Shown here piece after piece: positions 5,169 through 21,533 of a stretch of 64,000 nucleotides of DNA. Source of the DNA: Burkholderiaceae bacterium (lineage in GTDB: Bacteria > Pseudomonadota > Gammaproteobacteria > Burkholderiales > Burkholderiaceae_C); contig JAHCKM010000003.1 in assembly GCA_026125795.1 (NCBI GenBank), forward strand, positions 806,001 through 870,000, read 5' to 3'. The first letter of the stretch is position 1, and every line of letters starts with the position of its first letter. Both the position numbers and the translations under genes were made by a program. The notes under the pieces were generated by a model that was not told the DNA's origin, made no database searches, and saw nothing but the letters and a program-made list of their open reading frames with translations.

Positions 5169-5855
5169 TCAACTCGCCAGGTCGCGCAGCTGCAGCACCG
5201 GCCAGCCGCGCTCGGCGGCGATCGCGGCCAGCCGCATGTCCGGGTTCACCGCCACCGGATGGCGCACCGCGGACAGCAGCGGCAGGTCATTGACCGAGTC
5301 GCTGTAGAAGGTGGAATCGCAGTCGCGCAGATCCATGCGCTGTCCTTGCAGCCACTCGTGCAGCCGCGCGACCTTGCCGTCGCGCATGTTGAGCGCGCCG
5401 GCGATGCGTCCGGTGAAGCGGCCGTCGGCGTCGACGTCGCACTCGGTGGCGATCAGGTGCGGCAGTCCGAGGTGCACCGCCGTCAACTCGGTGAGGAAGC
5501 GGTTGGTCGCAGTGGTCAGCACCACCAGCTCGCCGGCGTTGCGGTGGCGCTCGACCAGCTCGTGGGCCGCACGGCCGATGCGCGGCGCGACCACGGCATC
5601 GATGAACTCGCGGCGCAACGGCTCCCACTGTGCGGGCGTGCGCCCGGCCAGTGTGGAGACATAAAACTCGCAGAACGCGTGCGGGCTGACGGTCCCGGCC
5701 CGGTACTCGCGCTCCATGCGCGCGTTCTTCTCCTGGAACACCGATCGATCGATGGCGCCCTGCGCGAGCAGGAAGTCGCACCACAGCACGTCGGTGTCGC
5801 CGTCGAGCAGCGTGTGGTCGAGGTCGAACAGGGTCAGCGGCAGCGGTCGCGCCAT
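5169..5855 (-). CDS. HAD-IB family phosphatase
   Basis: This 228-aa haloacid-dehalogenase-superfamily hydrolase of the phosphoserine-phosphatase-like IB group has motif I FDLDHTLLDGD near residue 11 (nucleophile Asp and acid/base Asp), motif II VVLTTATNRF, and motif III/IV with DGKVARL followed by DSTFYSDSVNDLPLL. The ATG at 5855 fits the family N-terminus. It starts 17 bp after the aldehyde dehydrogenase stop and so may be the last gene of the phosphonate/gamma-glutamyl operon. Proteins of this subfamily are common in Burkholderiales outside that context, so the link may be only positional. It lacks the features of phosphonoacetaldehyde hydrolase PhnX. The substrate is unknown. Confidence 0.85.
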   Translation of the reverse strand: MARPLPLTLFDLDHTLLDGDTDVLWCDFLLAQGAIDRSVFQEKNARMEREYRAGTVSPHAFCEFYVSTLAGRTPAQWEPLRREFIDAVVAPRIGRAAHELVERHRNAGELVVLTTATNRFLTELTAVHLGLPHLIATECDVDADGRFTGRIAGALNMRDGKVARLHEWLQGQRMDLRDCDSTFYSDSVNDLPLLSAVRHPVAVNPDMRLAAIAAERGWPVLQLRDLAS

Positions 5856-5872
5856 GTCAGGCTGCCATGCCG

Positions 5873-7246
5873 TCACGGCGACCGCAGGTGCCAGGCCTTG
5901 GGGCGCGTGAAGGTCTGGATGCCATGGGTCGACAGCGTGAGGCCGATGCCCGAATCGCCATGGCCCGACCATGGCAGCCGCGGGCTCACGCGGTCGCAGC
6001 AGTTCCAGTACACGCTGCCGGCGTTGACGCGCGCCAGCAGCTCGCGCGCCTTGGCCTCGTCGCGGGTGTATACGCCGGCGGTGAGGCCGTAGCGCGTGTC
6101 GTTCATCAGAGCCACGGCCTCGTTGTCGCTGCCCACCTTCTGGATGCCGATGACCGGGCCGAAGCTTTCTTCGCGCATCAGCTCCATCGTGTGGTCGACG
6201 TCGGTGAACACCGTGGGTGCGTACCAGTTGCCCGGGCCCGGCAGGCGTCGGCCGCCCATGTGCAGCCTGGCGCCCTTGGCTTTGGCATCGGCCACCTGGG
6301 CGTCGAGCACCGCGAGCTGCGGCGCACGCGTGACCGCACCGATGTAGGTGTCGGCAGCCATCGGGTCGCCGACCTTGAAGCCCTGGACGGTGGCGACGAA
6401 GTGCTGCACGAAGGCATCGTGGATCGCCGCATGCACATAGATGCGCTCCACCGAGCAGCAGCTCTGGCCGGTGTTGTACATCGCGCCGTCGGCCAGGCTC
6501 TCGGCAGCGGCCTTGGGATCGGCGTCGGCACGGACGTAGGTGGGGTCCTTGCCGCCGAGCTCGAGCTGCAGCTTGACCAGCCGCGGGGCCAGCGCCTGCG
6601 CGATCTTCACGCCGGTGGCATGGCTGCCGGTGAAGAACAGGCCGTCGATGCGCTGGTTCAGCAACGCGCCGCCGATTTCGCCGCCGCCCACGAGCGGCTG
6701 CATCACGTGCTCGGGCACGCCGGCTTCGTGCAGCAGCCGCGTGATGTGCAAGCCGGACAGCGTCGCGAACTCCGACGGCTTGTACAACACCGCGTTGCCG
6801 GTGAGCAGCGCCGGCACGATGACGTTGCAGCCCACGAAGTACGGGTAGTTCCAGGCCGAGATGTTGGCCACCACGCCGAGCGGCACGTGGCCGATGCGCT
6901 CGCTCATGCCGACGTCGTCGAACACCGCTTCGTCGGCGATCGCACTTTCGGTCTGCGCGAGAAAAAAGTCGATGCGCGGCAGCAGGCCGTTGATCTCGTT
7001 GCGCGACTGGCTGATCGGCTTGCCGACTTCCTGCGTCAGCGTGGCGGCAAGCGTTTCGAGCTCGGCGACGAGGCCGGTGCGAAAGCGCTGGATCGCCGCC
7101 AGCCGCTCGCGCAGCGCGGTGGCCGCCCATGCGGGTTGCGCCGCGCGTGCCGCAGCGGCCTTGGCGGCCACCGATGCCGCATCGTCGGCCGGGCGTTCGT
7201 CGATCTGCTGGCCGGTGGCGGGGTTGTGAATCTTCAGCGTGGACAT
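5873..7246 (-). CDS. NAD(P)-dependent aldehyde dehydrogenase
   Basis: This 457-aa aldehyde dehydrogenase-superfamily enzyme has an ISAWNYP cofactor-pocket segment, the glutamate in LELGGKDP, and the catalytic cysteine in YNTGQSCCSVERI. The ATG at 7246 was chosen over an upstream frame extension because MSTLKIHNPATG matches the usual N-terminus. It lies 19 bp after a PuuD-type amidohydrolase gene. In a gamma-glutamylated amine or amino-alcohol route it would oxidise the gamma-glutamyl aldehyde to the carboxylate before the gamma-glutamyl group is removed. The specific substrate is inferred from context only. Confidence 0.9.
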   Translation of the reverse strand: MSTLKIHNPATGQQIDERPADDAASVAAKAAAARAAQPAWAATALRERLAAIQRFRTGLVAELETLAATLTQEVGKPISQSRNEINGLLPRIDFFLAQTESAIADEAVFDDVGMSERIGHVPLGVVANISAWNYPYFVGCNVIVPALLTGNAVLYKPSEFATLSGLHITRLLHEAGVPEHVMQPLVGGGEIGGALLNQRIDGLFFTGSHATGVKIAQALAPRLVKLQLELGGKDPTYVRADADPKAAAESLADGAMYNTGQSCCSVERIYVHAAIHDAFVQHFVATVQGFKVGDPMAADTYIGAVTRAPQLAVLDAQVADAKAKGARLHMGGRRLPGPGNWYAPTVFTDVDHTMELMREESFGPVIGIQKVGSDNEAVALMNDTRYGLTAGVYTRDEAKARELLARVNAGSVYWNCCDRVSPRLPWSGHGDSGIGLTLSTHGIQTFTRPKAWHLRSP

Positions 7247-7265
7247 GCTTGGAGGCGTCTCAAGT

Positions 7266-8075
7266 TCAGGCGTACTCGGCTCGGGTAGCGCGCGCCGCGC
7301 GCAAGAAGTCGCGCAGCAGCGGCGCGTCGTCAAACGTGTCGGGGTCGCCGGGGATGTGGAACTCCGGGTGCCATTGCACCGCCGCCACGTACGACGGGCC
7401 GGTGCGGCGCACGGCCTCGATCATGCCGTCGTCGGGGCAGCAGGCCTCGACGACGAAACCGGGCGCCAGGTCCTTGATCGCCTGGTGGTGGATCGAGTTG
7501 ACGATGCCGTTGCGCACGTCGGGATAGAGCTGCGCCAGCCTGGAGTGCGGCACCAGCTCGATGGCATGGAAGTGGCGCTCGAAGGTGGAGCCGTCGCGGT
7601 GCGCGCGCGACGTGGGGCGCTGCGTGGCGATGTCCTGCAGCAGCGTACCGCCGAACATCACGTTGAGCAGCTGCAGCCCGCGGCAGATGCCGAACACCGG
7701 CTTGCCGGCGCGCACGAACGCATCGATCAGCTCGATCTCGTAGCGGTCGCGCACGCGGTCGCCGGCCCAGTCGGGATGCAGCGGCGTTTCGCCGTAGGTC
7801 TCGGGCGCGACGTCGTTGCCGCCTTGCAGCACCAGGCCGTCGAGCGTGTGCGCGTAGTCGTCGAGGTCGAGATCGCTGCGCGTGACGATGCTGTCCTTGG
7901 TGACTGCGGGAATCATCACCGCCATGGCATGCCCCGACAGCACCCAGTGCGCCACGCTCTGCTCAAGGTAGTGCAGGTTCTTGGTCCAGATGCCGCTGAC
8001 GTTGATGCCGGCGCTGCCCGGCGTGTAGATGCGCGCCGAGACCCCGATCAGCAGGGGTCGTTCGCCCGAGCTCAT
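7266..8075 (-). CDS. Class-I glutamine amidotransferase-like gamma-glutamyl hydrolase (PuuD type), copy 1
   Basis: This 269-aa peptidase C26/PuuD-like enzyme has a nucleophile Cys in FGICRGLQLLN and the catalytic His-Glu pair in VQWHPEF. The family removes the gamma-glutamyl group from gamma-glutamyl-GABA or similar amides in the cytoplasm. The ATG at 8075 overlaps the stop of the second PuuD-like gene (ATGA). The two proteins are clearly paralogous, sharing blocks such as YIEQSVAHWV / YLEQSVAHWV, but have diverged, suggesting different gamma-glutamyl substrates or a heteromeric enzyme. Confidence 0.9.
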   Translation of the reverse strand: MSSGERPLLIGVSARIYTPGSAGINVSGIWTKNLHYLEQSVAHWVLSGHAMAVMIPAVTKDSIVTRSDLDLDDYAHTLDGLVLQGGNDVAPETYGETPLHPDWAGDRVRDRYEIELIDAFVRAGKPVFGICRGLQLLNVMFGGTLLQDIATQRPTSRAHRDGSTFERHFHAIELVPHSRLAQLYPDVRNGIVNSIHHQAIKDLAPGFVVEACCPDDGMIEAVRRTGPSYVAAVQWHPEFHIPGDPDTFDDAPLLRDFLRAARATRAEYA

Positions 8076-8860
8076 GCGCGCGCGGCGCGCGCTGCCCGCG
8101 CCGCGTCGAGAAAGTCAGCCAGGATCGGGCCGTCGTCAATCACGCCGTGCTCGAGCGGCTTGTGGAACTCCGGATGCCATTGCACCGCGGCCACGTAGCT
8201 CGGTCCGCGCCAGCGGATGGCCTCGATCAGCTCGTCGTCGGGACAGGTCGCCTCGACGGTGAAGTCTTTCGCCAGCCGGTTGATGCCCTGATGGTGCACG
8301 CTGTTCACCTGGAAGCGCGACGCGCCGGGGTACAGCTGCGCGAGCCGCGTGCCGGCAACGAGCTCCACCTGATGAAAGTGCTGGTCATAGAGCTCGGCCT
8401 GGCGGTGTGCCAGTGCCTGCGGCTTGAGCGTGCCGATGTCCTGCAGCAACGAGCCGCCGAACGCAACGTTGAGCACCTGCAGGCCGCGGCACACGCCGAA
8501 CACCGGCTTGCCCTCGGCCACGAACGCCCGCGCCAGCGCGGTCTCATACTCGTCGCGCACGCGGTCGCCGAGCCATTGCGGCTGCAGCGGCTCCTCGCCG
8601 TAGTGGCCGGGCCACATGTCGGAGCCGCCCATCAGCACAAGGCCGTCGAGCCAGGTGGCGTAGTCATCCAGCGACACCTTGCCGCGCGAGGTGTCGCCGA
8701 GCGGCGAGGGCACCATCACCGGCAGCGCCTCGCCATTTGAGGCGACCCAGTGCGCCACCGATTGTTCGATGTACTGCAGCGTCTTGCCGGTGAAGATCGG
8801 GCGTGCGGTGTCGGCATGGAAGAAACAAGCCGAGATCCCGATCTTCAAACGCTCTTTCAT
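8072..8860 (-). CDS. Class-I glutamine amidotransferase-like gamma-glutamyl hydrolase (PuuD type), copy 2
   Basis: This 262-aa paralogue of the next gene has the same catalytic elements: Cys in FGVCRGLQVLN and His/Glu in VQWHPEF. The ATG at 8860 (MKERLKIGISACFF) was chosen because the iron alcohol dehydrogenase stops only 4 bp earlier; the longer open frame upstream overlaps that gene. Tandem PuuD paralogues with 4-bp overlaps imply co-translation. It is expected to hydrolyse a gamma-glutamyl amide to glutamate and a free amino compound. Confidence 0.9.
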   Translation of the reverse strand: MKERLKIGISACFFHADTARPIFTGKTLQYIEQSVAHWVASNGEALPVMVPSPLGDTSRGKVSLDDYATWLDGLVLMGGSDMWPGHYGEEPLQPQWLGDRVRDEYETALARAFVAEGKPVFGVCRGLQVLNVAFGGSLLQDIGTLKPQALAHRQAELYDQHFHQVELVAGTRLAQLYPGASRFQVNSVHHQGINRLAKDFTVEATCPDDELIEAIRWRGPSYVAAVQWHPEFHKPLEHGVIDDGPILADFLDAARAARAARA

Positions 8861-8864
8861 ACGC

Positions 8865-10004
8865 TCACATTGCAGCGAGGAAGAACCGTTCGTAGTCTGC
8901 CTCGACTGTGGGGCGCGGGTTGGTCTGCGCGGTGAAATCCTTCGCGGCCAAGGGGACCAGCTGCGACAGGTGCGCGCGTGTGACGCCGTGCGCCGCCAGG
9001 CCGCCGGTGATGCCGATGCGGCTCTTGAGCGCACGCAGCCAGCGGATGAAGGCGGCGCCATCGGCATCGGGATGCACGTCGGCGGCATGGCACAGCTCGG
9101 CAAACTTCTCCGGCACGGCTTCGCGGTTCCAGTCGAGCACGGTGTCGATCATCAGCGCGTTGGCCAGGCCATGGTGCAGACCACACACCGCGCCGAGCGC
9201 GTGTGCGCACGCATGCACCGAGCCCAGGTCTTTCTGGAACGCGATGGCGCCCATCATCGAGCTCATCATCATGTCGCTGCGTGCGTCGAGGTTGCCCGGC
9301 TCGTGCACCGCGACAGCCAACGCGCGCGCGCCGATGCGCAGGCCCTCGAGCGCGATGCCGTCGCACAGCGGGTGGTAGGCCGGCGACAGGTAGCTCTCGA
9401 TGTTGTGCGTCAGCGCGTCCATGCCGGTGGCCGCGGTCACGCCGGGCGGCAGCGCGAGCGTCAGCTCGGGGTCGGCGAATACCGCCTTGGCCAGAAGCTT
9501 GGCGTCGAACACGGTACGCTTGTGGTGCGTGTCGTTCTCCGACACGACGGCAGAGCGACCGACCTCGGAGCCGGTGCCCGAGGTGGTGGGCAGCGCGACG
9601 AAGTGCGGCAGCTCGTGGACGATCGGCAGCACGTTCGGGTGGTCCCACACGTACTCCAGCACGTCGCCCGGGTGCGTGGCCATCAGGCCGACCACCTTGG
9701 CCACGTCGAGCGCCGCGCCGCCGCCGAAGCCGATGACGCAGTCGGCGCCGTGCGCCGTGAACGCCTTGCTGCCTTCCATCACCATGGCGCAGGTCGGGTT
9801 GCCGTGGATGCCGTCGAACACGGCCGTGTCCAGCTCACGCAGGTGCGACCTGAACTCGGCCAGCACGGGCAGCGCGGCGAGCGCACGGTCGGTCACGATC
9901 AACGGGCGCTTGAGGCCTTGCTCGAGCAAGTGCGGACCGACCCGCTTGCGTGCACCGGCGCCGAAGTGGATGGTGGTGGGGAAGGCGAACTTGGTGATGG
10001 TCAT
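8865..10004 (-). CDS. Iron-containing alcohol dehydrogenase
   Basis: This 379-aa group III (Fe-ADH) dehydrogenase has the NAD-binding GFGGGAALDVAK motif at about residue 95, the TTSGTGSEVG segment, and metal-ligand histidines in ACAHALGAVCGLHHGLANALM. It would oxidise a primary alcohol to an aldehyde, or the reverse. It lies between the glutamine-synthetase-like ligase and the PuuD pair and takes the position that the amine oxidase PuuB has in putrescine operons. That suggests the gamma-glutamylated substrate is an amino alcohol and not a diamine (inference). A repeat element directly abuts its start codon, and no Shine-Dalgarno sequence is evident. Confidence 0.92.
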   Translation of the reverse strand: MTITKFAFPTTIHFGAGARKRVGPHLLEQGLKRPLIVTDRALAALPVLAEFRSHLRELDTAVFDGIHGNPTCAMVMEGSKAFTAHGADCVIGFGGGAALDVAKVVGLMATHPGDVLEYVWDHPNVLPIVHELPHFVALPTTSGTGSEVGRSAVVSENDTHHKRTVFDAKLLAKAVFADPELTLALPPGVTAATGMDALTHNIESYLSPAYHPLCDGIALEGLRIGARALAVAVHEPGNLDARSDMMMSSMMGAIAFQKDLGSVHACAHALGAVCGLHHGLANALMIDTVLDWNREAVPEKFAELCHAADVHPDADGAAFIRWLRALKSRIGITGGLAAHGVTRAHLSQLVPLAAKDFTAQTNPRPTVEADYERFFLAAM

Positions 10005-10085
10005 GTCAGCGGCGCCCGGCCGCCCGAAGCCGCTGACGCGCCCCCTCGGGGGGCGGCGAGCGAAGCGAGCGTGGGGGCGTGTTCA
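10005..10085 (-). repeat. Dispersed GC-rich intergenic repeat, copy 1
   Basis: The gap between the ligase and alcohol dehydrogenase genes is filled by a structured element. It has an inverted repeat TCAGCGGC (10006-10013) / GCCGCTGA (10029-10036), then a C-run/G-run hairpin, then GCGAGCGAAGCGAGCGTGGGG. Related copies occur at 28449-28517, 40091-40159 and, inverted, 52775-52875. Its GCCGCTGAC end is fused to the ATG of the alcohol dehydrogenase gene. Confidence 0.75.
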
Positions 10086-11459
10086 CTAGATGATCTCGAA
10101 GTAGCGCTTCAGCTCCCAATCGGTCACCGCGTCCTGCCACTGCCGGTGCTCCCAGTGGCGCGTGGCGGCAAAGTGGTCGACAAAGGTGTCGCCGAACCAG
10201 TCGCGCGCGATGGCCGACTCCTTGAACGTGTGTGTGGTGCGCAGCAGCGAGCGCGGCGCGCGCGGGATGTTCTCGGCGCCCTGGTTGGTGCCGGTGATCG
10301 GCGGTGCGGTGAGCTTGAGACCTTTCTCAACGCCGTGCATGCCGGCCGCGACCACCGCGGCCATCGCGAGATAGGGGTTCACGTCGGCGCCGGGGCAGCG
10401 TGTTTCCAGCCGCGTGCTCTTGGGGCTGCCGGCGATCACGCGGAAGCTGGCGGTGCGGTTGTCCAACCCCCAGGTCGGTTTCACCGGCGCCCAGAAACCA
10501 TCGACCAGGCGCTTGTAGCTGTTGATGGTGGGCCAGAACATCGGCGCGAACTCCATCAGGCAGGCCACCTGGCCGGCAAGGTAGCTCTCGAACAGCTTGC
10601 TCATCGAGCGCTTGCTCTTGTCGTCGTAGAACAGGTTGCGCTTGCCGTCGGACAGGCTCTGGTGGATGTGACCCGAGCAGCCGGGGTACTTCTGGCTCCA
10701 CTTGGCCATGAAGCTCGGCATCACGCCGAAGCGCTTGCCGATCTCCTTGGCGCCGGTCTTGAACAGGATCGCGCGGTCGGCGGCTTCGAGCGCCTCGCTG
10801 AAGGTGATGGCGGCTTCGTAGACACCCGGGCCGGTCTCGGTGTGCAGGCCTTCGATCGGCACGCGGAACGCCGCCATCTCGTCCATCAACGCGTTGAAGA
10901 AGCCGCGGTTGTCGGCCATGCGCAGCAGCGAGTAGCCGAACATGCCGGGCGTGATCGTCTCAGGATTGAGGCCCTGCTTGGCGGCCCAGCTGTGCGGCGA
11001 CTCGGCAAAGTTGAACCACTCAAACTCCATGCCGGCCATCACGTCGAAGCCGAGCTTGCGGGCACGCTGCAGCACGCGCTTGAGCGTCTGGCGCGGGCAC
11101 ACGGGGAAGGGCGAGCCATCGGCGTTGACGAAATCGCCAAGGAAGAACGGCACTTGGTTGTCCCATGGCACGTGGCGCGCGGTGTCCAGATCCAGGCGCG
11201 CCAGCGCATCGGGAAAGCCGTGCTGCCAGCCGGTGACCTGCGTGTTGTCGTAGCACTGGTCTTGCGAGTCCCAGCCGAACACCACGTCGCAGAAGCCGAA
11301 GCCGCCCTTGGGATGCGGCTCGGCGGCGCCGAGGAACTTGTCGACGTGCAGGTACTTGCCGCGCAGGATGCCGTCGATGTCGCTGACGGCGACCTTGACC
11401 TTCTGCGCGCCGGACTTGCGCAGCGCGGCGAGGGCGGGATGTTCTTTTGCGGTGGCCAT
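10086..11459 (-). CDS. Glutamine-synthetase-family ligase (gamma-glutamylamide synthetase, PuuA type)
   Basis: This 457-aa protein has glutamine-synthetase fold motifs: an N-terminal VSDIDGILRGKYLHVDKF (beta-grasp), the metal-binding MEFEWFNF, the catalytic-domain GCSGHIHQSLSDG histidines, and the C-terminal NRTASFRVIAGSP arginine/glutamate region. The length and N-terminus suit the PuuA/GlnA-like branch better than nitrogen-assimilation GlnA. These enzymes join glutamate to an amine using ATP. It begins 14 bp after phnW in the same operon, which makes an amine related to aminoethylphosphonate, or ethanolamine, a plausible acceptor (inference). Housekeeping GlnA cannot be formally excluded from sequence alone but is unlikely here. 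Confidence 0.88.
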   Translation of the reverse strand: MATAKEHPALAALRKSGAQKVKVAVSDIDGILRGKYLHVDKFLGAAEPHPKGGFGFCDVVFGWDSQDQCYDNTQVTGWQHGFPDALARLDLDTARHVPWDNQVPFFLGDFVNADGSPFPVCPRQTLKRVLQRARKLGFDVMAGMEFEWFNFAESPHSWAAKQGLNPETITPGMFGYSLLRMADNRGFFNALMDEMAAFRVPIEGLHTETGPGVYEAAITFSEALEAADRAILFKTGAKEIGKRFGVMPSFMAKWSQKYPGCSGHIHQSLSDGKRNLFYDDKSKRSMSKLFESYLAGQVACLMEFAPMFWPTINSYKRLVDGFWAPVKPTWGLDNRTASFRVIAGSPKSTRLETRCPGADVNPYLAMAAVVAAGMHGVEKGLKLTAPPITGTNQGAENIPRAPRSLLRTTHTFKESAIARDWFGDTFVDHFAATRHWEHRQWQDAVTDWELKRYFEII

Positions 11460-11473
11460 GGCGGATTGTGCGT

Positions 11474-12592
11474 CTACAGCGCGGGTGCGCCGCTGGGGAT
11501 GCCCATCTCGCGCAGCGCGTCGCCGACGGCGTTGACGGCCTGCTGCATCTCGTTGCGTCCGATGGCGCCGATGCAGCCGACACGGAAGGTCTCGATCTGC
11601 GTCAGCTTGCCGGGGTAGAGGATGAAGCCGCGCTGCTTGGCCGCCTCGTAGAAGCGCTTGAAGTCATAGGCCGCGTGGCCCGGTGCATGGAAGGTCACGA
11701 TGATCGGGGCCTGGATCTGCGGCTTCAGAAAGGGCTTGAAGCCGAGCGCGCCCATGCCTTCGACCAGCGTGCTGCAGTTGTCGGCGTAGCGCCTCAAGCG
11801 TGCCGGTTGCCCGCCTTCTTCGACGAACTGCGCCACCGCTTCGGCCAGCGCCGCCACCACGTGCGTGGGCGGCGTGAAGCGCCACTGCCCGGTCTTTTCC
11901 ATGTAGAAGTGCTGGTCGTGCAGGTCCATCGCCAGGCTCTGGCTGTTGCCGGCGCAAGCGTCGAGCACCGCCCGGCGCAGGAAGACGAAGCCCATGCCCG
12001 GCACGCCTTCGAGGCACTTGCCGCTGGCGGCGACCAGCGCGTCGAAGCGGATGGTGCGCGCATCGATCGGCAACGCGCCGAAGCTCGACATCGCATCGAC
12101 GATCAGCCCTTTGCCGTGGCGCTCGCAGACCGCGGCCACCTCGGCCAGCGGGTTCTCGACGCCGGTGCCGGTTTCGCAGTGCACCAGCAGCACGTGCGTG
12201 ACCGAGGGATCGGCCCGGAGCCGCTTCTCGACGGCGTCGGCCGATACCGGCACATCCTCGGCAAACGGCACCACCGTGGCCTTGCGGCCCATCATCTGCG
12301 TGAGCTTGGCGGCGCGCTTGCAGTAGGCGCCGTTGTCGGGCACCAGCACGTGGCCGCTCCGCGGCACCAGCGTCGCGACCGCCGCCTCGACGCTGAACGT
12401 GCCGCTGCCTTGCAGCGGCACCAGCACGTGGGTGTCGCGCCCGTGCACCACGTCGAGCAGCCGGGTGCGTAGCCCCGCCGTGATGGCGTTGAAGTCCGCG
12501 TCCCACGAGCCCCAATCCTTCAGCATGGCGAGCTTGGTGCGCAGCGTGGTGGTCAGCGGCCCCGGTGTGAGCAGGATGCGGTCGCGGTCCAT
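11474..12592 (-). CDS. phnW: 2-aminoethylphosphonate--pyruvate transaminase
   Basis: This 372-aa class V PLP aminotransferase matches PhnW along its length. It opens [10 protein letters not shown] and continues with [19 protein letters not shown] and the PLP-contacting IVDAMSS (Asp about 166). The Schiff-base Lys is near residue 192 in [13 protein letters not shown]. PhnW moves the amino group of 2-aminoethylphosphonate to pyruvate, giving phosphonoacetaldehyde and alanine. It lies 20 bp downstream of the transporter permease gene. The downstream steps are supplied by PhnY and PhnA encoded on the other strand about 8 kb away. The upstream frame extension overlaps the permease gene and is not used. 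Confidence 0.93.
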
Positions 12593-12612
12593 CGTGGATC
12601 TCCGAAAGAGGT

Positions 12613-14328
12613 TCAACGCCCGCCGGCGCGCCAGGCTTGGGTGCGGCGGTCGATCCAGCGGCCCAGCAGCATGAACAACACCGTGGCCAGCGCCGACGCC
12701 GCCGCGATCAGCACCGCCATCGCGGCGGCCGGGCTCAGCTCGCCGGCCTCGTCCATGTTGAGGATGGCGATCGAGGCCAACCGGGTCTCGGGCGAGTAGA
12801 GGAAGACCACGGCCGAGATCGTGGTCATCGCATTGATGAAGAAGTAGCGTGCGATGTCCACCAGCGCCGGGGTGCAGATGGGCAGCGTGACGCGCCAGAA
12901 CGTGCGGAACCACGGCACCTTGAGCGACGCCGACACGGCCTCGAACTCGGCATCCAGCGCCTTTAGCGCGGTCACGGCGGTGAGGTGGCCGGTGGTGTAG
13001 AAGTGCACGATGGTGCACAGGGTCATCAGCAGCAGCGTGTGGTACAGCCCGTGCAGCGGATTGTCCGGCGCGTTGAAGAAGAAGATGTATCCGAGGCCCA
13101 GCACCAGACCGGGTATCGCCATCGGCAGGATGGCCAGCATGCGCAGCACGCCGCGCATGCCCTGGAACGCGCGCACTTTCTCCTGCAGGTAGGCGCCGAT
13201 GAAGACGAGCGCGGTGCCGATCGTCGCGCAGCCGGCGGCCATCTGCAGACTGTTGAGGAAGCCGGCGCCGACCTCGTTGTCGACCAGGCCGTAGGTGTAG
13301 TGCTTCAGGCTCGGCGTCAGGTTGTACGGCCAGAAGGTGGCGAACGACGCGAACACCGCCATGCCGAGCATGGCCAGCATCAGCAGCGCGATCAGGCTGC
13401 AATAGGCCGTCATCGCCAAGTCAAACCCGCGCGCAGGCCTGGGCGCGTAGGGCACCGCCCGCGCGGTCAGCATCGCGGTCTGCCGGCGCTGCACCGCGTG
13501 GTCGACGGCAAAGGTGAGCACGGCCGGCGCCAGCAGCAGGATGGCCACCACCGCGCCCTTGGCGAAGTCCTGCTGGCCGATCACGAGCTTGAACACGTCG
13601 GTGGCCAGCACGTTGAAGTTGCCGCCGATCACCTTGGGGATGCCGAAGTCGGTGATGACCAGCGTGAAGGTCACCAGCGCCGCCGAGATGAGCCCATAAC
13701 GCGCGCCCGGCAGCGTGATGGTGAAGAACTTGCGCGCCGCCGAGGTGCCGAGCGCGTCGGCCGCCTCGTACAGGCGCGCGTCGGCCAGCGTCAGCGCCGA
13801 CAGCAGGATCATCAGCGTGTGCGGAAAGGTTGCCAGGCACTCCGCCAGCACGATGCCCGGCGCGCCGTAGATCTGGTCGATGCCCAGCGCCTGCATTGCA
13901 CCCTTGAGCACGCCCTGGTTGCCGAACCAGTAGAGCAACGACAGCGCCGACAGCAACGACGGCGCCAGCAGCGGCACCAGCGCCACGCCGCGGAACAGCC
14001 CCTTGAGCGGCATGCACGAGCGCGTGAGGGCGTAGGCGAAGCCGAACGCCAGCGGCACGGTGATCGCGGTGACCGCGGCCGACACCCACAAGCTGTTCCA
14101 CAGGCTTTGCAGCAGCGCCGGCGTCTGCGCGTAGGCCACGAAGTTGGCCAGGCCGACGAATCGGCCGTCGCGGCCTTCGACCGCCTGGCGCAGGATGGCC
14201 AGCAGCGGCAGCGCCAGGAACACCACCAGCACGAGCACGATGGCGACGATGGCCGCCAGCGCGACGCGGTCGCTCCAATGCGAGCTCAGACGCAGCGGCG
14301 CAGACCCGGCGCGCAGCAACGCAGCCAT
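12613..14328 (-). CDS. Aminophosphonate-type ABC transporter, fused permease
   Basis: This 571-aa inner-membrane permease consists of two binding-protein-dependent permease halves, each with about six helices (FbpB/PhnU-PhnV-like arrangement). The second half begins near residue 310 after [20 protein letters not shown]-loop-like motifs occur in each half: [20 protein letters not shown] in the first and [20 protein letters not shown] in the second. It lies 2 bp from the ATPase gene and 20 bp from phnW, so the transported ligand is most likely 2-aminoethylphosphonate (context-based). Confidence 0.9.
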
Positions 14329-14330
14329 CT

Positions 14331-15383
14331 TTAGAACACGCGCAGGCGCTCTTGCAGCAGCCGCAGGCGCAGGCTGGAGCCCACCGACAGCGACTGCTCG
14401 GCCAGGTAGTTGAGCGACAGGTACACCGTGAGCCGATGCGGACCGAGCGCCTCCGACGCCACCTGCACGTGGCAGTAAGAGCCGAGGAAATCGATCTTCT
14501 CGATCACCGAGTCGAACACCAGCGGATCGGCGTCGGCGATCGGGCGCGCCAGCACGTCTTCAGGCCGCAGGTACACGCGCACCTCGCGGTCTTCACCGGC
14601 GGAATGCCAGCTCAGCGCGCCGGTGTGCAGCCGGCCCTGGCTCACGCGGCCGGGCAGCACGTTGACCTTGCCGACGAAGTCGGCCACGAACGGCGAGGCC
14701 GGCTCGCGGTACACCTCCAGCGGCGCGCCGATCTGCTCGATCGCGCCCTGGTTCATCACCACGATGCGGTCGGCCACGGACAGCGCCTCTTCCTGATCGT
14801 GCGTGACCATGATCGTGGTGACGCCGAGCTTGCGTTGCAGCGCACGGATCTCCTGGCGCAGCCGCACCCGCTCCAGCGCGTCGAGCGCCGACAGCGGCTC
14901 GTCGAGCAGCAGCAGGCCGGGCGAGGTGGCCAGCGCGCGCGCCAGCGCAATGCGCTGCTGCTGCCCGCCCGACAGTTGCGCGGGATACTTCTTCTCGCTG
15001 CCGGGCAGGCCCACCAGCTTGAGCAGCTCGGACACGCGCTGTGCGATCTGAGCGCGCGCCATCCGGCGATTGACCAGGCCGTAGGCGACGTTGTCGGACA
15101 CGCTGAGGTTGGGAAACAGCGCGTAGCTCTGGAAGACGATGCCGTAGTCGCGCTGCGCCGGCGGCAGGCGCGAGATGTCGCGGCCGTTCTGCCAGATCTC
15201 GCCGCGGCTCTGCGCCTCCAGGCCGGCGATGGCGCGCAGCAGCGTGGTCTTGCCGCAGCCCGACGGGCCGAGGAAACACATGAACTCGCCCTTGCGCACG
15301 TCGAGATCGACGTGGCGCAGGGCGACAAAGCTGCCGAAGGCCTTGTGGATGCCGCGAAGCTCGAGGGCGAGTTCGGTCGTCAT
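14331..15383 (-). CDS. Aminophosphonate-type ABC transporter, ATP-binding protein
   Basis: This 350-aa ATPase of the Fbp/Pot/Phn group has Walker A GPSGCGKTT, signature LSGGQQQR, Walker B LLLDEPLSALD and switch VTHDQEEAL, plus a C-terminal TOBE-like regulatory domain at about residues 270-350. The ATG at 15383 (MTTELALELRGIHKAFGSF) is preferred over an upstream frame extension that runs into the intercistronic hairpin. It energises the fused permease encoded 2 bp downstream. Confidence 0.92.
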   Translation of the reverse strand: MTTELALELRGIHKAFGSFVALRHVDLDVRKGEFMCFLGPSGCGKTTLLRAIAGLEAQSRGEIWQNGRDISRLPPAQRDYGIVFQSYALFPNLSVSDNVAYGLVNRRMARAQIAQRVSELLKLVGLPGSEKKYPAQLSGGQQQRIALARALATSPGLLLLDEPLSALDALERVRLRQEIRALQRKLGVTTIMVTHDQEEALSVADRIVVMNQGAIEQIGAPLEVYREPASPFVADFVGKVNVLPGRVSQGRLHTGALSWHSAGEDREVRVYLRPEDVLARPIADADPLVFDSVIEKIDFLGSYCHVQVASEALGPHRLTVYLSLNYLAEQSLSVGSSLRLRLLQERLRVF

Positions 15384-15402
15384 CACGAAGCCAGAACGCC
15401 GA

Positions 15403-15449
15403 GCTGACGCGCGAGGCGCCCGCGGCCGCGGCGCACCGCCGGCGTCAGC
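15403..15449 (-). promoter_or_regulatory. Intercistronic stem-loop after the binding-protein gene
   Basis: Inverted repeat GCTGACGC (15403-15410) / GCGTCAGC (15442-15449) encloses a second GC palindrome (CCGCGGCCGCGG). It spans the stop codon of the substrate-binding-protein gene and the short gap before the ATPase gene. Hairpins in this place often protect the abundant binding-protein mRNA from 3' decay. That role is inferred here. Confidence 0.5.
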
Positions 15450-16479
15450 GCTTCTCCGATTTGGCGTTGTAGCGCTTGTTCCATTCGGCAAGGATGCGCT
15501 CGCGGTTGCTCGCCGAGTAGTTGAAGTCCATCTTGATCAGCCGCGACTCGTAGTCGGCCGGGATGTTGGCCAGCTTGGGCGCGACACCGGGCTGCGCGGT
15601 GACGGCGAAGTTCTTGCCGTACAGGATCATCGCGTCCTTGCTGCTGGCCCAGTCGGCCAGCTTCTTGGCCGCCTCGAGCTTCTTGGTGCCCTTGTGGATC
15701 GCGAACGCCTCGAGGTCCCAGCCGAGCCCTTCCTTCGGGAACACCAGGTCGATCGGCGCCCCCTTGGACTTGTTGCTGTGGCCGCGGTACTCGAACGAGA
15801 TGCCGGCCACGTATTCACCGGCGGCCGCCATGTTGCAGGGCTTGGAGCCCGAGTGCGTGTACTGGCCGATGTTCTCGTGCAGCGCGTCCATGAACTTCCA
15901 GCCGCCGCCCTTGCCATTTTCGTCGCCCCACATCTGCAGCCATGCCACGACGTCGAAGTAGCCGGTTCCCGAGGAGGCCGGATTGGGCATCACCACCTGA
16001 CCCTTGTAGACCGGCTTGAGCAGATCCTTCCAGGTCTCGGGCTTGGGGATGTTGCGCTTCTGCGCCTCCACCGTGTTGAAGCACACCACGGCGCCGTAGA
16101 CGTCCATGCCCCACCACGCCGGCGGGTTCTTCTTGTCGCGGTAGATGCTCATGATGGCGTCGAGATTGATCGGCGCGTACGGCTCGAGCATGCCCTGCTG
16201 GTCGAACAGCGCCAGTCCCGACGCGGCCACGCCCCAGATCACGTCGGCCTGCGGGTTAGACTTCTCGGCCAGCAGCTTGGCAATCACCACGCCGGTGGAG
16301 TCGCGCACCCACTTGATCTCGATGTTCGGCTCGGCCTTGTTGAACCCCTCCTGGTAGGCCTTGAGCTGGTCGGTCTCGAGCGCGGTGTAGACCAGAAGCG
16401 TGGTCTTCTGGGCCTGAGCCGAAGTGACCAGCGACAGTGCCGCCCAGACGAGCAGGGGGGCGATGCCCGGGATGCGCAT
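15445..16479 (-). CDS. Aminophosphonate-type ABC transporter, periplasmic binding protein
   Basis: This 344-aa family-1/iron-type extracellular binding protein has a Sec signal peptide (MRIPGIAPLLVWAALSLVTSAQAQ, cleaved after AQA). The mature start TTLLVYTALETDQLKAY is typical of putative 2-aminoethylphosphonate binding proteins. The ATG at 16479 follows a strong ribosome-binding site (AGAGGAG, about 7 nt spacing). It is the first gene of the phosphonate operon, behind the promoter at 16596-16625. Iron(III)-binding proteins are related in sequence, so the ligand assignment relies on phnW being in the same operon. Confidence 0.88.
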   Translation of the reverse strand: MRIPGIAPLLVWAALSLVTSAQAQKTTLLVYTALETDQLKAYQEGFNKAEPNIEIKWVRDSTGVVIAKLLAEKSNPQADVIWGVAASGLALFDQQGMLEPYAPINLDAIMSIYRDKKNPPAWWGMDVYGAVVCFNTVEAQKRNIPKPETWKDLLKPVYKGQVVMPNPASSGTGYFDVVAWLQMWGDENGKGGGWKFMDALHENIGQYTHSGSKPCNMAAAGEYVAGISFEYRGHSNKSKGAPIDLVFPKEGLGWDLEAFAIHKGTKKLEAAKKLADWASSKDAMILYGKNFAVTAQPGVAPKLANIPADYESRLIKMDFNYSASNRERILAEWNKRYNAKSEKR

Positions 16480-16595: not shown

Positions 16596-16625
16596 ACCCT
16601 AGCGCCGGCGCTTTTCGGCTGTCAA
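16596..16625 (-). promoter_or_regulatory. Candidate sigma-70 promoter of the phosphonate operon
   Basis: On the minus strand, TTGACA (16625-16620) is followed after 18 bp by TAGGGT (16601-16596). Transcription from here would give a leader of about 110 nt before the binding-protein gene. The shared operator motif lies just upstream of the -35 box. Confidence 0.5.
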
Positions 16626-16638
16626 CGGTATTTTGCCG

Positions 16639-16656
16639 ATTGTTGACAATGTGCAA
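16639..16656. promoter_or_regulatory. Candidate GntR operator, site 1
   Basis: ATTGTTGACAAT-G-TGCAA. The first 12 bp form an inverted repeat ATTGT-TG-ACAAT, the usual shape of FadR-subfamily operators. The same 18-bp pattern, with one base free, recurs at 19488-19505 in front of the GntR gene. It lies in the 333-bp gap between the divergent transporter operon and the Na/Pi transporter, which otherwise shows no gene. Confidence 0.65.
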
Positions 16657-16812: not shown

Positions 16813-18513
16813 ATGCGGTGCGTGACTTTCGGATTCATGGTTCATCTGCTCAATCTGCTCGCTGCGGTGGCCCTTCTGGTATGGGGCACGCAGTTCGTGC
16901 GCACCGGCATCCTGCGCGTCTTCGGCGAGAACCTGCGCCACATCCTGGCGGTGGGCATGGCCACGCGCGGGCAGGCGTTGCTGGCCGGCTTGGGCGTGAC
17001 CAGCCTGATCCAGAGCAGCACCGCCACCTGCCTGATCGTCACGTCGTTCCTCGGCCGCTCGCTGGTCACGCTGTCGGCGGCGCTGGCGGTGATGCTGGGC
17101 GCCGACGTGGGCACCAGCCTGATGGCGGTGGTGTTCTCGTTCGACCTGTCGTGGCTGTCCCCGCTGCTGATCTTCGGCGGCGTGGTGGCCTTCATCTCGA
17201 GGGAGAAGACCACCGCCGGGCGTCTGGGACGCGTGGCAATCGGCCTGGGGCTGATGCTGCTGTCGCTGCAGTTGATCGTCGAGGCGACCAAGCCGCTAAC
17301 CGAGTCGCCGACGGTGCGCACGCTGCTGGCCGCGTTGCCCAGCGAAGTGGCGCTCGACATGCTGGTGGGTGCCGTGCTGACGGTGGCGTCGTACTCGAGC
17401 CTGGCGATGGTGCTGCTCACCGCGACGCTGGCGGTCTCGGGCATGGTGCCGATGACCGTCGCGCTCGGCCTGGTGCTCGGCGCCAACCTCGGCAGCGGCC
17501 TGCTGGCGGTGCTGCTCACCGCGCGCGGTCCGATGGCCGAGCGCCGGCTGGCGATCGGCAACCTGCTGTTCAAGGTGGTGGGCGCGATTGCCGTCATCCC
17601 GCTGCTGCCCTATGTGCACGTCTGGCTGCAGCACGCCGGCGGCGGTCTGCATCAGCAGGTGGTGCTGTTCCATCTGGGCTTCAACGTCGCGCTGGCGGTG
17701 GTGTTCATCGGCCTCACCGGCGCCGCGGCCCGGCTGCTGATCAAGCTGTTCAAGGAGCCGCCGCGTGGCGTGCACCAGCGGCCCCAGCACCTCGACCCGT
17801 CGGCGCTGGCCACGCCGAGCCTGGCCATCAGCTGCGCCGCGCGCGAGGCGCTGCACCAGGCCGACGTGGTGGAGACGATGCTGCGCGGCATCGTGCCGGT
17901 GCTGCGCAACAACGACCTCGTGCTGGCCGAGGAGTTGCGCAAGCTGGACGACACCGTCGACCAGCTCTACACCTCGATCAAGCTGTACCTCACGCAGATC
18001 TCGCGCGAGGCGCTCAACGAGCGCGAGAGCCGGCGCTGGACCGACGTGGTGTCGTTCACCATCAACATGGAGCAGATCGGCGACATCATCGAGCGGGTGC
18101 TGCAGGACATCGAGGACAAGAAGGTGCGGCCTAACCGGCGCCTGTCGGACGCCGGCATGGCCGAGGTGTGCCACCTGCATGAGCGGCTGCTCGCGAACCT
18201 GCGGCTGGCGATGAGCGTGTTCCTTGACGGCCACGTGCGAGATGCGCGCAAGCTGCTGGAAGAAAAGGCGCGCTTCCGCGACCTGCAGTACGAATACGCC
18301 GCCAGCCACATCGCGCGGCTGCAGGACAACACCACACAAAGCATCGAAACCAGCTCGCTGCACCTGGACCTCATCAGCGATCTCAAGCGCATCAACTCGC
18401 ACATCTGCTCGATCGCCTATCCGATCCTCGAGTCGGCCGGCGCGCTGACCGCCACGCGCATCCGGCCGTCGGTGCTCGCGCCGATGGATTCGGATCTGCA
18501 GAAGAGCGAATGA
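16813..18513 (+). CDS. Na/Pi cotransporter-family protein with PhoU-like C-terminus
   Basis: This 566-aa inner-membrane protein has two Na+/Pi-cotransporter repeats, each with the QSST-type signature (GVTSLIQSSTATCLIV near residue 70; ASYSSLAMVLLTATLA near 195), spread over about 8-9 helices. A cytoplasmic PhoU-like helical domain follows at about residues 340-560. The ATG at 16813 is used; a second ATG at 16837 (MVHLLNLLAAVALLVWGT) fits the family N-terminus equally well. Bacterial relatives such as YjbB are linked to phosphate export or balance. Next to PhnA, which releases phosphate, a role in disposing of excess phosphate is plausible (inference). Confidence 0.88.
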   Translation: MRCVTFGFMVHLLNLLAAVALLVWGTQFVRTGILRVFGENLRHILAVGMATRGQALLAGLGVTSLIQSSTATCLIVTSFLGRSLVTLSAALAVMLGADVGTSLMAVVFSFDLSWLSPLLIFGGVVAFISREKTTAGRLGRVAIGLGLMLLSLQLIVEATKPLTESPTVRTLLAALPSEVALDMLVGAVLTVASYSSLAMVLLTATLAVSGMVPMTVALGLVLGANLGSGLLAVLLTARGPMAERRLAIGNLLFKVVGAIAVIPLLPYVHVWLQHAGGGLHQQVVLFHLGFNVALAVVFIGLTGAAARLLIKLFKEPPRGVHQRPQHLDPSALATPSLAISCAAREALHQADVVETMLRGIVPVLRNNDLVLAEELRKLDDTVDQLYTSIKLYLTQISREALNERESRRWTDVVSFTINMEQIGDIIERVLQDIEDKKVRPNRRLSDAGMAEVCHLHERLLANLRLAMSVFLDGHVRDARKLLEEKARFRDLQYEYAASHIARLQDNTTQSIETSSLHLDLISDLKRINSHICSIAYPILESAGALTATRIRPSVLAPMDSDLQKSE

Positions 18514-19526: not shown

Positions 19527-20249
19527 ATGCCGCCGCAATCCGAGCTGAACAAACGTGCGCCCACCGCAGCGGCGATTGAACTGCTGCGCGAGAACTCGCT
19601 GGCCATGCTGGCGCAGCGCGAGCTCGAGCGGCGCATCACGTCGGGCGAGATCGCGGTGGGTGCCAAGCTCAACGAGGTGGACATCGCCAGCGCGCTGGGG
19701 GTGTCGCGTGGGCCGGTGCGCGAGGCGTTCCGCGCGCTCGACCAGGCCGGCCTGGTGCGCGTGGAGAAGAACCGCGGCGTGTTCGTGCGCCAGGTCTCGC
19801 TCGAGGAAGCCAACGAGATCTACGAGGTGCGCGCCGCGCTCGAGGGACTGATCGGCCGGCTGGCCGCGCAGCGCATCCAGCCCGACGAGCTCGACCAGTT
19901 GCGCGCCGTGGTCAAGAAGATGTTCGCGCTCGACAAATCGCGCAAGGGCGAGGCGTACTTCCTGCTCAACGTGGAGTTTCACGACATCTTGCTGCGCGCG
20001 GCGCGCAACGCCGCGCTGGCCACGCACTACCGGCGCCTGGTCAACGAGCTCGACCTGTACCGCCGCGAGACGCTGGTGCGCGGCAGCGAGAACATTCCGG
20101 TGTCCACGCGCGAGCACGAGGCCATCGTCAACGCGGTGGCCAAACGCGACGAGCGGCTGGCGGAGCGTTTGCTGGTCGAGCACGTGCTGCACAGCCGCGA
20201 GCGGCTGCACGGCGCGCTGGCCAAGCCGGCGCGCACGCGTGCCGCATAG
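19527..20249 (+). CDS. GntR-family transcriptional regulator (FadR/FCD subfamily)
   Basis: This 240-aa regulator has an N-terminal winged helix-turn-helix (ITSGEIAVGAKLNEVDIA, then LGVSRGPVREAFRALDQAGLV) at about residues 30-95. An all-helical FCD ligand-binding domain follows at about 100-225, including metal/ligand-type histidines (VEFHDILLRAA; REHEAIVNAV). It is encoded 24 bp before phnA and is the obvious candidate regulator of both phosphonate transcription units. An inducer such as 2-aminoethylphosphonate or a pathway intermediate is inferred. Confidence 0.92.
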   Translation: MPPQSELNKRAPTAAAIELLRENSLAMLAQRELERRITSGEIAVGAKLNEVDIASALGVSRGPVREAFRALDQAGLVRVEKNRGVFVRQVSLEEANEIYEVRAALEGLIGRLAAQRIQPDELDQLRAVVKKMFALDKSRKGEAYFLLNVEFHDILLRAARNAALATHYRRLVNELDLYRRETLVRGSENIPVSTREHEAIVNAVAKRDERLAERLLVEHVLHSRERLHGALAKPARTRAA

Positions 20250-20273: not shown

Positions 20274-21533
20274 ATGGAAAGCAAGCAACCGACCGTCGAG
20301 GTGAACGGCACCTCGTACCGCTGGCCGCGACGGCCGGTGGTGGTGGTGTGCATCGACGGCGGCGATCCGGCGTACCTGCGGCGTTTTCTCGACGAAGGGG
20401 CAGTGCCGCACATCGCGCGCTTCATCGCCCAGGGCTACGGGGCGGTGGCCGAAGGCTCGATGCCGTCGTTCACCTGCCCGAACAACATGTCGATCATCAC
20501 CGGCACGCCCACGTCGAGGCACGGCATCTCGGGCAACTTCTACCTCGACACGCGCACCTGGGAGCCGGTGGTGATGACCGGTCCCGAGCTGCTGCGCGGC
20601 GACACCATCCTGAAGCGTTTTGCCGATGCCGGCGCCCGGGTGATCTCGATCACCGCCAAGGACAAGCTGCGCAGGCAGCTCGGCAAGGGCCTGGACGTCA
20701 CCCAGGGGCACGTGTCGTTCTCGTCGGAGTTCGCCTCGCGCTGCACGCTGGCCGAAAACGGCATCGACAACGTGCTGCAGTTCGTCGGCATGCCGCAGCC
20801 CGACATGTACTCGATGGAACTGTCGCTGTTCGTGCTGGAGGCCGGCGTCAAGCTGCTGGCGCAGCGCCGGCCCGACCTGTTGTACCTGTCGCTCACCGAC
20901 TGGGTGCAGCACAAGTACGCGCCCGACGAAGCCGAAGCGCGGCGCTTCTACCAGTCGCTGGACGATGCCTTCGGCCGCCTGGCGGCGCTCGATGCCACCG
21001 TGGCAGTCACCGCCGACCACGGCATGAGCGACAAGAGCAACGCCGCCGGCGAACCCAACGTGATCTGGCTGCAGGACATCCTCGATGCGCGGTTCGGCGT
21101 TGGCGCGACGACCGTGATTTGCCCGATCACCGATGCCTTCGTCGGCCACCATGGCGCGCTCGGCGGCTTTGTGCGCGTGTGGAGCCGCGGCGCGGTCACG
21201 GCGCGCCAGATCGTCGAGCACATCGCCGGCCTCGAAGGCATCGAGATGGCGCTGACGCGCGAAGAAGCCTGCAAGCGGTTCGACCTGCCGGCCGATCGCG
21301 AGGGCGACGTGGCCGTGGTGGCGCGGCAGGACGTGTGCATCGGCAGCAGTGCGCGGGCGCATGACCTGTCGGGGCTCAAGGGCCACCGGCTGCGCACGCA
21401 CGGCGGCGTGTCGGAGACCCAGGTGCCGTTCATCCTGAACCGGCCGCTGACCGATGCGTACAAGATGAAGGCAGCGAGCGGAACCTTGAAGAGCTATCAG
21501 ATCTTCGATTTCGCGATCAACGGCACGCAGTGA
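20274..21533 (+). CDS. phnA: Phosphonoacetate hydrolase
   Basis: This 419-aa alkaline-phosphatase-superfamily enzyme matches PhnA, which splits phosphonoacetate into acetate and phosphate. Expected metal and nucleophile residues are present: Asp28 in VVCIDGGDP, Thr67 in PSFTCPNN, the Asp/His of LTDWVQHKY, TADHGMSD, and the late His in HRLRTHGG. The ATG at 20274 follows an AGAGG ribosome-binding site. Its stop overlaps the phnY start by GTGA, so the last two pathway steps are translationally coupled. Confidence 0.95.
   Translation: MESKQPTVEVNGTSYRWPRRPVVVVCIDGGDPAYLRRFLDEGAVPHIARFIAQGYGAVAEGSMPSFTCPNNMSIITGTPTSRHGISGNFYLDTRTWEPVVMTGPELLRGDTILKRFADAGARVISITAKDKLRRQLGKGLDVTQGHVSFSSEFASRCTLAENGIDNVLQFVGMPQPDMYSMELSLFVLEAGVKLLAQRRPDLLYLSLTDWVQHKYAPDEAEARRFYQSLDDAFGRLAALDATVAVTADHGMSDKSNAAGEPNVIWLQDILDARFGVGATTVICPITDAFVGHHGALGGFVRVWSRGAVTARQIVEHIAGLEGIEMALTREEACKRFDLPADREGDVAVVARQDVCIGSSARAHDLSGLKGHRLRTHGGVSETQVPFILNRPLTDAYKMKAASGTLKSYQIFDFAINGTQ

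Follow-up and report, generated by a model that had tools for sequence, protein, structure and literature searches.

A candidate operon for two lipid head groups joins 2-aminoethylphosphonate uptake, a gamma-glutamyl ethanolamine cassette and a HAD-IB phosphatase

Why should genes for the uptake and transamination of an aminophosphonate share an operon with genes for gamma-glutamylation and oxidation of an amino alcohol? The question is raised by ten genes in a 64,000-nucleotide stretch of DNA (the window) from a Burkholderiaceae bacterium (GenBank assembly GCA_026125795.1, contig JAHCKM010000003.1, positions 806,001 to 870,000), whose genome measures 6.57 Mb with an estimated completeness of 98.9%. 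The genes are co-directional on the minus strand, from phnS2 (16479) to a gene for a phosphatase of the HAD-IB type (5172). We hold it to be somewhat more probable than its negation that this is an operon for the use of both 2-aminoethylphosphonate (AEP) and its isostere phosphoethanolamine (AEP with one inserted oxygen), two lipid head groups, by way of a shared transporter, the HAD-IB enzyme and a gamma-glutamyl cassette. The genes, from 5' to 3', are as follows.

15448..16479, minus strand: PhnS2, periplasmic binding protein of the AEP type (TIGR03261, 484 bits; cut-off 393)
14334..15383, minus strand: PhnT2, ABC ATPase (TIGR03265, 497 bits; cut-off 458)
12616..14328, minus strand: PhnU2, fused two-domain permease (TIGR03262, 805 bits; cut-off 593)
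11477..12592, minus strand: PhnW, 2-aminoethylphosphonate:pyruvate aminotransferase (NF010006, 573 bits, cut-off 296; TIGR02326, 493 bits, cut-off 401)
10089..11459, minus strand: glutamine-synthetase-like ligase, read as gamma-glutamylethanolamide synthetase (PF00120, 306 bits)
8868..10004, minus strand: iron-containing alcohol dehydrogenase, read as gamma-glutamylethanolamide dehydrogenase (PF00465, PF25137)
8075..8860, minus strand: first PuuD-type hydrolase, read as gamma-glutamylglycine amidohydrolase (PF07722, 184 bits)
7269..8075, minus strand: second PuuD-type hydrolase (PF07722, 184 bits)
5876..7246, minus strand: aldehyde dehydrogenase, read as gamma-glutamylaminoacetaldehyde dehydrogenase (PF00171, 424 bits)
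5172..5855, minus strand: HAD-IB phosphatase, proposed phosphoethanolamine phosphatase (TIGR01490, 141 bits, cut-off 98; PF12710, 127 bits, cut-off 27)

The operon and the predicted roles of its genes

With stop codons counted (the low-end coordinates of minus-strand genes exclude them), the gaps are 14 bp between PhnW and the ligase, 81 bp between ligase and alcohol dehydrogenase, 4 bp from there to the first PuuD gene, -4 bp between the two PuuD genes and 19 bp before the aldehyde dehydrogenase gene; the phosphatase gene starts 17 bp 3' of the latter. A preliminary description of this DNA had given the minus-strand set from phnS, phnT, phnUV and phnW to the aldehyde dehydrogenase with these same gaps, which agrees exactly with the gene calls, and had read the distal genes as a gamma-glutamyl cassette in which an alcohol dehydrogenase replaces the oxidase PuuB. 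The family matches bear this out: those to PF00120, PF00465/PF25137, PF07722 (both copies) and PF00171 all exceed the gathering score, and family searches found no PuuB-type oxidase among the ten genes. As a whole that interpretation holds in part, for the cassette, its alcohol dehydrogenase and its phn neighbours; the cassette itself is already described, and the interpretation overlooked the tenth gene, the HAD-IB phosphatase at 5172-5855, which lies within the region it described.

The ligase is not scored as a glutamine synthetase by the specific models, reaching 211 of 429 bits for GlnA (TIGR00653) and 198 of 470 for the type III enzyme (TIGR03105). When it is aligned with the genome's own glutamine synthetase, Trp323 occupies the position of the flap Glu, and all 15 aligned relatives share this Trp; in PMC6529630 the flap Glu is E327 of the Salmonella enzyme, with Phe at this place in GlnA4 and Trp in PauA7. 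The position of D50 in glutamine synthetase aligns with Asp71 of the ligase, and the GlnA4 models likewise have Asp there (D81/D69; PMC6529630). The operon holds two features that characterize the gamma-glutamyl ethanolamine pathway: a ligase of the glutamine synthetase fold lacking the flap Glu327, together with an alcohol dehydrogenase, an aldehyde dehydrogenase and a gamma-glutamyl hydrolase. Elsewhere the genome carries another, stronger glutamine synthetase gene (462 bits, flap Glu present), as well as a third gene of this family (L003, at G000:C2:504437-505480). Both PuuD proteins contain a Cys motif (FGVCRG) and a His motif (QWHPEF), which we take to be the catalytic motifs of PuuD hydrolases.

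In the aminophosphonate half PhnS2, PhnT2, PhnU2 and PhnW, and the products of two genes on the opposite strand, all score above their curated cut-offs for the PhnSTU-PhnWAY pathway of AEP use:

20274..21530, plus strand: PhnA, phosphonoacetate hydrolase (TIGR02335, 540 bits; cut-off 408)
21533..22969, plus strand: PhnY, phosphonoacetaldehyde dehydrogenase (TIGR03250, 845 bits; cut-off 636)

The solved relatives of PhnS2 at E <= 1e-30 are AfuA (4r72), an "iron" binding protein (8x1a) and P5PA (6wce). AfuA has hexose and heptose phosphates as ligands (PMC4546632) and P5PA has pyridoxal phosphate (PMC8427247); PhnS2 retains in alignment the phosphate-holding Ser-Gly-Thr of AfuA, with Tyr-Arg in place of the sugar-binding His205-Asp206 (positions counted by hand). 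Because both relatives bind phosphate monoesters and the Ser-Gly-Thr is kept, the binding protein fits the import of phosphoethanolamine, and we propose that PhnS2 may bind this compound besides AEP.

The HAD-IB protein has D11, D13, T115, T117, K161, D186, N189 and D190 invariant in a nine-row alignment, presumably as catalytic residues, and its predicted structure (pLDDT, the predicted local distance difference test score, 94.5) has a HAD-IB/phosphoserine-phosphatase fold, with the uncharacterized protein 3fvv as the top match. To our knowledge no intermediate of the AEP or ethanolamine routes is a phosphate ester, so the enzyme needs another substrate; a phosphatase tied to both an AEP transporter and an ethanolamine cassette should yield ethanolamine from an imported ester, and a phosphoethanolamine phosphatase is what we propose it to be.

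According to the proposed mechanism, PhnS2T2U2 would import both AEP and phosphoethanolamine. PhnW would convert AEP to phosphonoacetaldehyde, from which the divergently encoded PhnY and PhnA would produce acetate and phosphate, and the HAD-IB enzyme would split phosphoethanolamine in the cytosol into ethanolamine and phosphate. The ligase would couple ethanolamine to glutamate, the alcohol and aldehyde dehydrogenases would oxidize the masked alcohol to gamma-glutamylglycine, and the two PuuD enzymes would split the latter into glycine and glutamate. We infer each of these substrate assignments, and likewise the acceptance of phosphoethanolamine by the transporter.

Distribution of the joint operon, its phosphatase and its operator

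A search for the ligase in 399 genomes drawn from the larger order found matches at E <= 1e-60 in 43, the source genome included, and the regions were fetched from 40 of the other 42 (G393 and G188 were left out). To these were added the best 80 of 588 ligase relatives from titled records, giving 121 loci with the window, or 115 after removal of six duplicates; the counts below use the 95 whose ligase is at least 55% identical. Twenty more distant loci (L054-L073, ligase 32-50% identical) were excluded, none of which has phn genes upstream or a HAD match. Upstream of the ligase stand phnS and/or phnUV in 25 of the 95, phnW only in 7, an ethanolamine-permease-like gene in 11 and other genes in 40, while 12 are cut off. 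With phnSTU upstream of the ligase at 25 of these 95 unique loci, the union of phn genes and cassette is no chance neighbourhood, and the outcome that would have told against the preliminary description, a cassette never found with phn genes elsewhere, is refuted. The relatives of the operon with a genus on record belong mostly to Comamonadaceae and Sphaerotilaceae.

The phosphatase follows the joint operon closely. A locus was judged for HAD where an aldehyde dehydrogenase match was followed by no fewer than 900 bases or where HAD was seen; by this measure all 22 judged loci with phnSTU and cassette (3 cut) have HAD, in the same orientation, and it is missing from all 31 judged cassettes without phn, namely 8 permease loci (3 more cut) and 23 "other" loci (17 more cut). 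It is present in one of three judged phnW-only loci (4 cut), the one being L100, which is cut just upstream of phnW, and in 4 of 7 judged loci with a cut upstream side (5 unjudged); in L143 it is positioned between phnW and ligase. For phn operons outside cassettes, the 399 genomes gave 49 permease matches with an identity of 50% or more, five of them in cassette operons, and 40 of the remaining 44 regions were fetched. In this set every one of the 39 phn operons to which no cassette is joined lacks HAD; the sole positive region among the 40 (L172, genome G241) has cassette, phnUV, phnW and HAD on one strand. In L161 and L165 the phn cluster is convergent with the cassette, and HAD is absent.

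At least one HAD match (E <= 1e-25) occurs in 105 of 120 genomes, mostly as a single copy, and the operon copy is a second paralogue in the source genome. In a tree of these proteins the 28 cassette-linked copies form one starred clade, separate from 29 paralogues encoded elsewhere (taken as housekeeping without reading their neighbourhoods); the HAD of L051, which is near the cassette on the opposite strand, groups with the 29. Under chosen thresholds nine positions differ between operon copies and paralogues while being conserved within each group, and the catalytic residues are kept.

Joint regulation is suggested by a predicted operator before phnS:

16619..16649, minus strand: a palindrome, TTGTCAAC-N-GTTGACA(G), read as an operator; it overlaps a TTGACA hexamer and lies some 140-170 bp 5' of phnS

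Even when three mismatches are allowed, this is the only match in the 6.57 Mb genome. Across the loci surveyed, the site, with no more than one mismatch in each half, stands before 16 of 22 phnSTU-cassette operons with sufficient upstream DNA, 2 of 6 phnW-cassette operons and 2 of 47 ligase-first loci (L111 and L113, both near a PhnR-like gene), and was found at none of 11 permease loci, none of the 40 fetched phn regions outside cassettes and in none of 20 mononucleotide-shuffled windows. The predicted operator thus appears to mark joint operons and not phn genes generally, and its near confinement to them supports one regulon for both halves.

Ethanolamine is well supported, from sequence comparisons, as the best candidate for the cassette's substrate. 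The permease-like gene immediately before the ligase in the 11 loci resembles the TIGR00908 proteins of L036 and L098; L036 scores 628 bits, and L098, L115 and L124 score 360-372, against a cut-off of 382. A divergent AraC regulator has EutR as its best family in both permease loci tested (133 and 149 bits, below the cut-off of 319). Since these partners accompany the cassette elsewhere, ethanolamine is preferred over propanolamine, so that the conversion of an amino alcohol to an amino acid claimed for this operon is retained as ethanolamine to glycine, with the propanolamine version less favoured. The source genome has no EutB, and it has no ethanolamine transporter of the TIGR00908 type above cut-off, with the cassette or elsewhere (best 53 bits; TRAP-type transporters were not searched for). 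At E <= 1e-60 this permease occurs in none of 6 genomes with the HAD operon, and it was found in 8 of 20 genomes checked, above cut-off in 4 of 4 of one permease-type genus and slightly below it in 3 of 3 of another genus and in G016. We think it as likely as not that this is a dedicated system for intact phosphoethanolamine, in which an AEP-type transporter, a specialized HAD-IB enzyme and glutamyl-masked oxidation to glycine would stand under one operator with the route for carbon-phosphorus (C-P) compounds.

Alternative readings of the locus

Several points weigh against this proposal. The roles of HAD and of the other enzymes are read from sequence and gene context, and no named phosphoethanolamine phosphatase occurs among the 50 fold matches listed for HAD or among its sequence matches. 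The protein resembles histidinol phosphatases (NF052360), scoring 236 bits against a cut-off of 280; the genome's other HAD copy, at 277 bits, is also slightly below it. AepX, which is a protein other than PhnS2, is reported to be highly specific for AEP (PMC8316502). Seven of the 20 genomes checked (G240, G152, G022, G250, G317, G396 and G387) have the ligase with neither the permease nor, at the fetched loci, HAD, so permease-or-HAD is not a strict rule and other entry routes exist. The surveyed loci are a limited sample, given the best 80 of 588 relatives and the 399 genomes from a larger order, and one cassette view (L052, of G241) was scored as without HAD because the phnW-HAD of that genome sits about 19 kb downstream. 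Shared descent also has to be considered. A tree of 56 ligases from loci whose state is known for both traits shows 10 changes of the phnSTU label and 9 of the HAD label. Its starred branches yield six independent comparisons between partners unlike in phn; averaged, HAD moves in the same direction as phn in 5.0 of them, against it in 0 and in neither direction in 1 (p = 0.0625). The Fisher test of HAD against phnSTU (2e-15) ignores descent and so overstates the link, which is repeated yet short of formal significance.

The most serious competitor, to which we assign a clearly smaller but substantial probability, is that the cassette uses free ethanolamine from lipid turnover, diffusion or periplasmic dephosphorylation and is under one promoter with the AEP genes through their common role in head-group use, HAD being a hitch-hiking duplicate of a histidinol phosphatase. 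The homology of HAD with that enzyme agrees with this, as does the presence of ligase and aldehyde dehydrogenase without HAD in 31 judged loci, and PhoX contributes to extracellular head-group cleavage in Phaeobacter (PMC10132767). A hitch-hiking HAD, however, should sometimes vanish from phn-cassette operons (0 of 22 judged) or appear in phn-only operons (0 of 39), and the HAD seen here keeps the catalytic residues and has conserved positions of its own against the paralogues. It is rather doubtful that transporter and HAD handle another phosphorylated amine (such as a phospho-propanolamine or N-methyl-phosphoethanolamine), with the ligase taking the matching amino alcohol: ligases of this kind can accept a wide choice of substrates, and a fusion of an FAD oxidoreductase with GcvT, of the sarcosine/dimethylglycine dehydrogenase type, is encoded at 23430-25856, but the permease and regulator that partner the cassette elsewhere point to ethanolamine.

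Two further explanations have very little weight. Glutamylation of AEP or another aminophosphonate by the ligase, which would make the cassette a second AEP route, has the shared operon in its favour; AEP, however, offers the alcohol dehydrogenase no alcohol, this dehydrogenase reaches 153 bits against a cut-off of 424 for the phosphonate-linked iron-containing alcohol dehydrogenase PsrA (TIGR03405), and 11 of 95 cassettes stand without phn and with an ethanolamine permease. Least probable of all is a spare ammonia-dependent glutamine synthetase: the PF00120 domain would allow it, and against it stand the scores far below the GlnA and type III cut-offs, the invariant Trp in place of the flap Glu and the stronger synthetase gene elsewhere in the genome.

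Relation to known pathways and neighbouring genes

The cassette and the AEP route are each already known; their coupling, together with HAD, is new and provides one testable new function. The ethanolamine operon of Phaeobacter sp. likewise has a ligase, an aldehyde dehydrogenase, an alcohol dehydrogenase and a gamma-glutamylglycine amidohydrolase that lead from ethanolamine to glycine, and the ethanolamine gamma-glutamylase, two dehydrogenases and the amidohydrolase are raised on phosphorylethanolamine (PMC10132767). It differs in that ethanolamine enters by a TRAP transporter, mainly after a proposed extracellular dephosphorylation, and in that its operon legend, in the available text, shows neither a phn gene nor HAD (PMC10132767). 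By locus tags its order is ligase, aldehyde dehydrogenase, alcohol dehydrogenase, as in a second lineage of our loci (L054-L069, ligase 44-50% identical), whereas the source operon runs ligase, alcohol dehydrogenase, PuuD, aldehyde dehydrogenase; four second-lineage loci (L054, L055, L058 and L064) have an ethanolamine-permease-like gene nearby. In Streptomyces coelicolor (SCO1610-1615) GlnA4, which has also lost the flap Glu, was shown in vitro to be a gamma-glutamylethanolamide synthetase, and a dehydrogenase, an aldehyde dehydrogenase and an amidohydrolase are proposed beside it; the dehydrogenase is of the short-chain type instead of the iron-containing one, and the cluster legend, as available, names no phosphonate genes (PMC6529630).

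The Puu putrescine pathway shares the ligase and PuuD folds, and its oxidase PuuB is not in the source operon; the operon's proteins reach 156 of 650 bits for PuuA, 232 of 850 for PuuC and 96 and 87 of 266 for PuuD. The Ipu pathway for isopropylamine and alaninol resembles the cassette as an amino-alcohol variant that oxidizes an alcohol to an acid under gamma-glutamyl protection; it differs in its amine, and IpuC (from Paenarthrobacter aurescens TC1 plasmids) is only 37-39% identical to the ligase. With the PhnSTUV/PhnWAY pathway the locus has transporter, PhnW, PhnA and PhnY in common and adds to it the ethanolamine cassette and the HAD-IB phosphatase; the sister route, PhnWX, also has a HAD protein, PhnX, but one of a different kind. 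Add-ons named for the AEP pathway are PbfA-D and PbfF (PMC8154272, PMC10590968, PMC12366243). The view that a combined route was not recognized as described survives for the union with the AEP genes, of which our literature search, in the text available, returned no account, nor of its HAD or of a bacterial phosphoethanolamine importer; the cassette itself had been described (PMC10132767, PMC6529630).

Whether head groups are transported intact into the cell before breakdown is left to be determined in PMC10132767, and intact uptake could be tested with the specific genes that the operon supplies, some of them present in named isolates. If the proposal is true, C-P and carbon-oxygen-phosphorus (C-O-P) recycling would be united in one regulon, phosphorus, nitrogen and carbon of both head groups would be usable without a periplasmic phosphatase, and the phnS2T2U2 genes that phosphonate surveys annotate as an "AEP transporter" would in part be a sign of common phospholipid head groups.

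Two further genes lie between the operon and phnA:

16837..18510, plus strand: Na/Pi cotransporter-like protein, possible phosphate carrier (TIGR00704, 254 bits, cut-off 210; TIGR01013, 268 bits, below its 306)
19527..20246, plus strand: GntR regulator of the PhnR type (TIGR03338, 259 bits, slightly below the cut-off of 271.5)

A scan for promoters and terminators returned no promoter-like sites, and its terminator-like sites were fewer than shuffled sequence gave on average. Within the 81 bp that separate ligase and alcohol dehydrogenase (10005-10085) lies a GC-rich hairpin-like stretch, CCGCCCCCCGAGGGGGCG, absent from the list of the terminator scan; it resembles the repeat elements of high-GC betaproteobacteria.

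Cassettes elsewhere vary in their minor genes. A second PuuD copy is clear only in L074, most other loci having one or none; no PuuD match was found in the cassette loci L034, L080, L083 and L091, and the two matches of L092, whose starts are separated by 388 bases, appear to be fragments of one gene. Between ligase and alcohol dehydrogenase some cassettes have a GNAT acetyltransferase gene (L099, 11370-11873; L090, 12772-13287); Pfam searches gave no matches for the genes that separate ligase from phnW in L101 and alcohol dehydrogenase from ligase in L090. A family-5 (oligopeptide-type) solute-binding protein is encoded at this last position in L125 (11456-13882) and L129 (11347-12903), both without phn upstream, possibly as a third way of substrate entry. 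The phn_DUF6 EamA transporter of the window has relatives divergent from the ligase in five loci without phnSTU (L099, L103, L104, L110 and L117), and so may have its role in the use of ethanolamine and not of phosphonates. Finally, the FAD oxidoreductase-GcvT fusion (DAO + GCV_T, plus strand), 3' of phnA-phnY, has relatives near phn genes in L041, L143 and L160 and possibly acts on N-methylated head groups.

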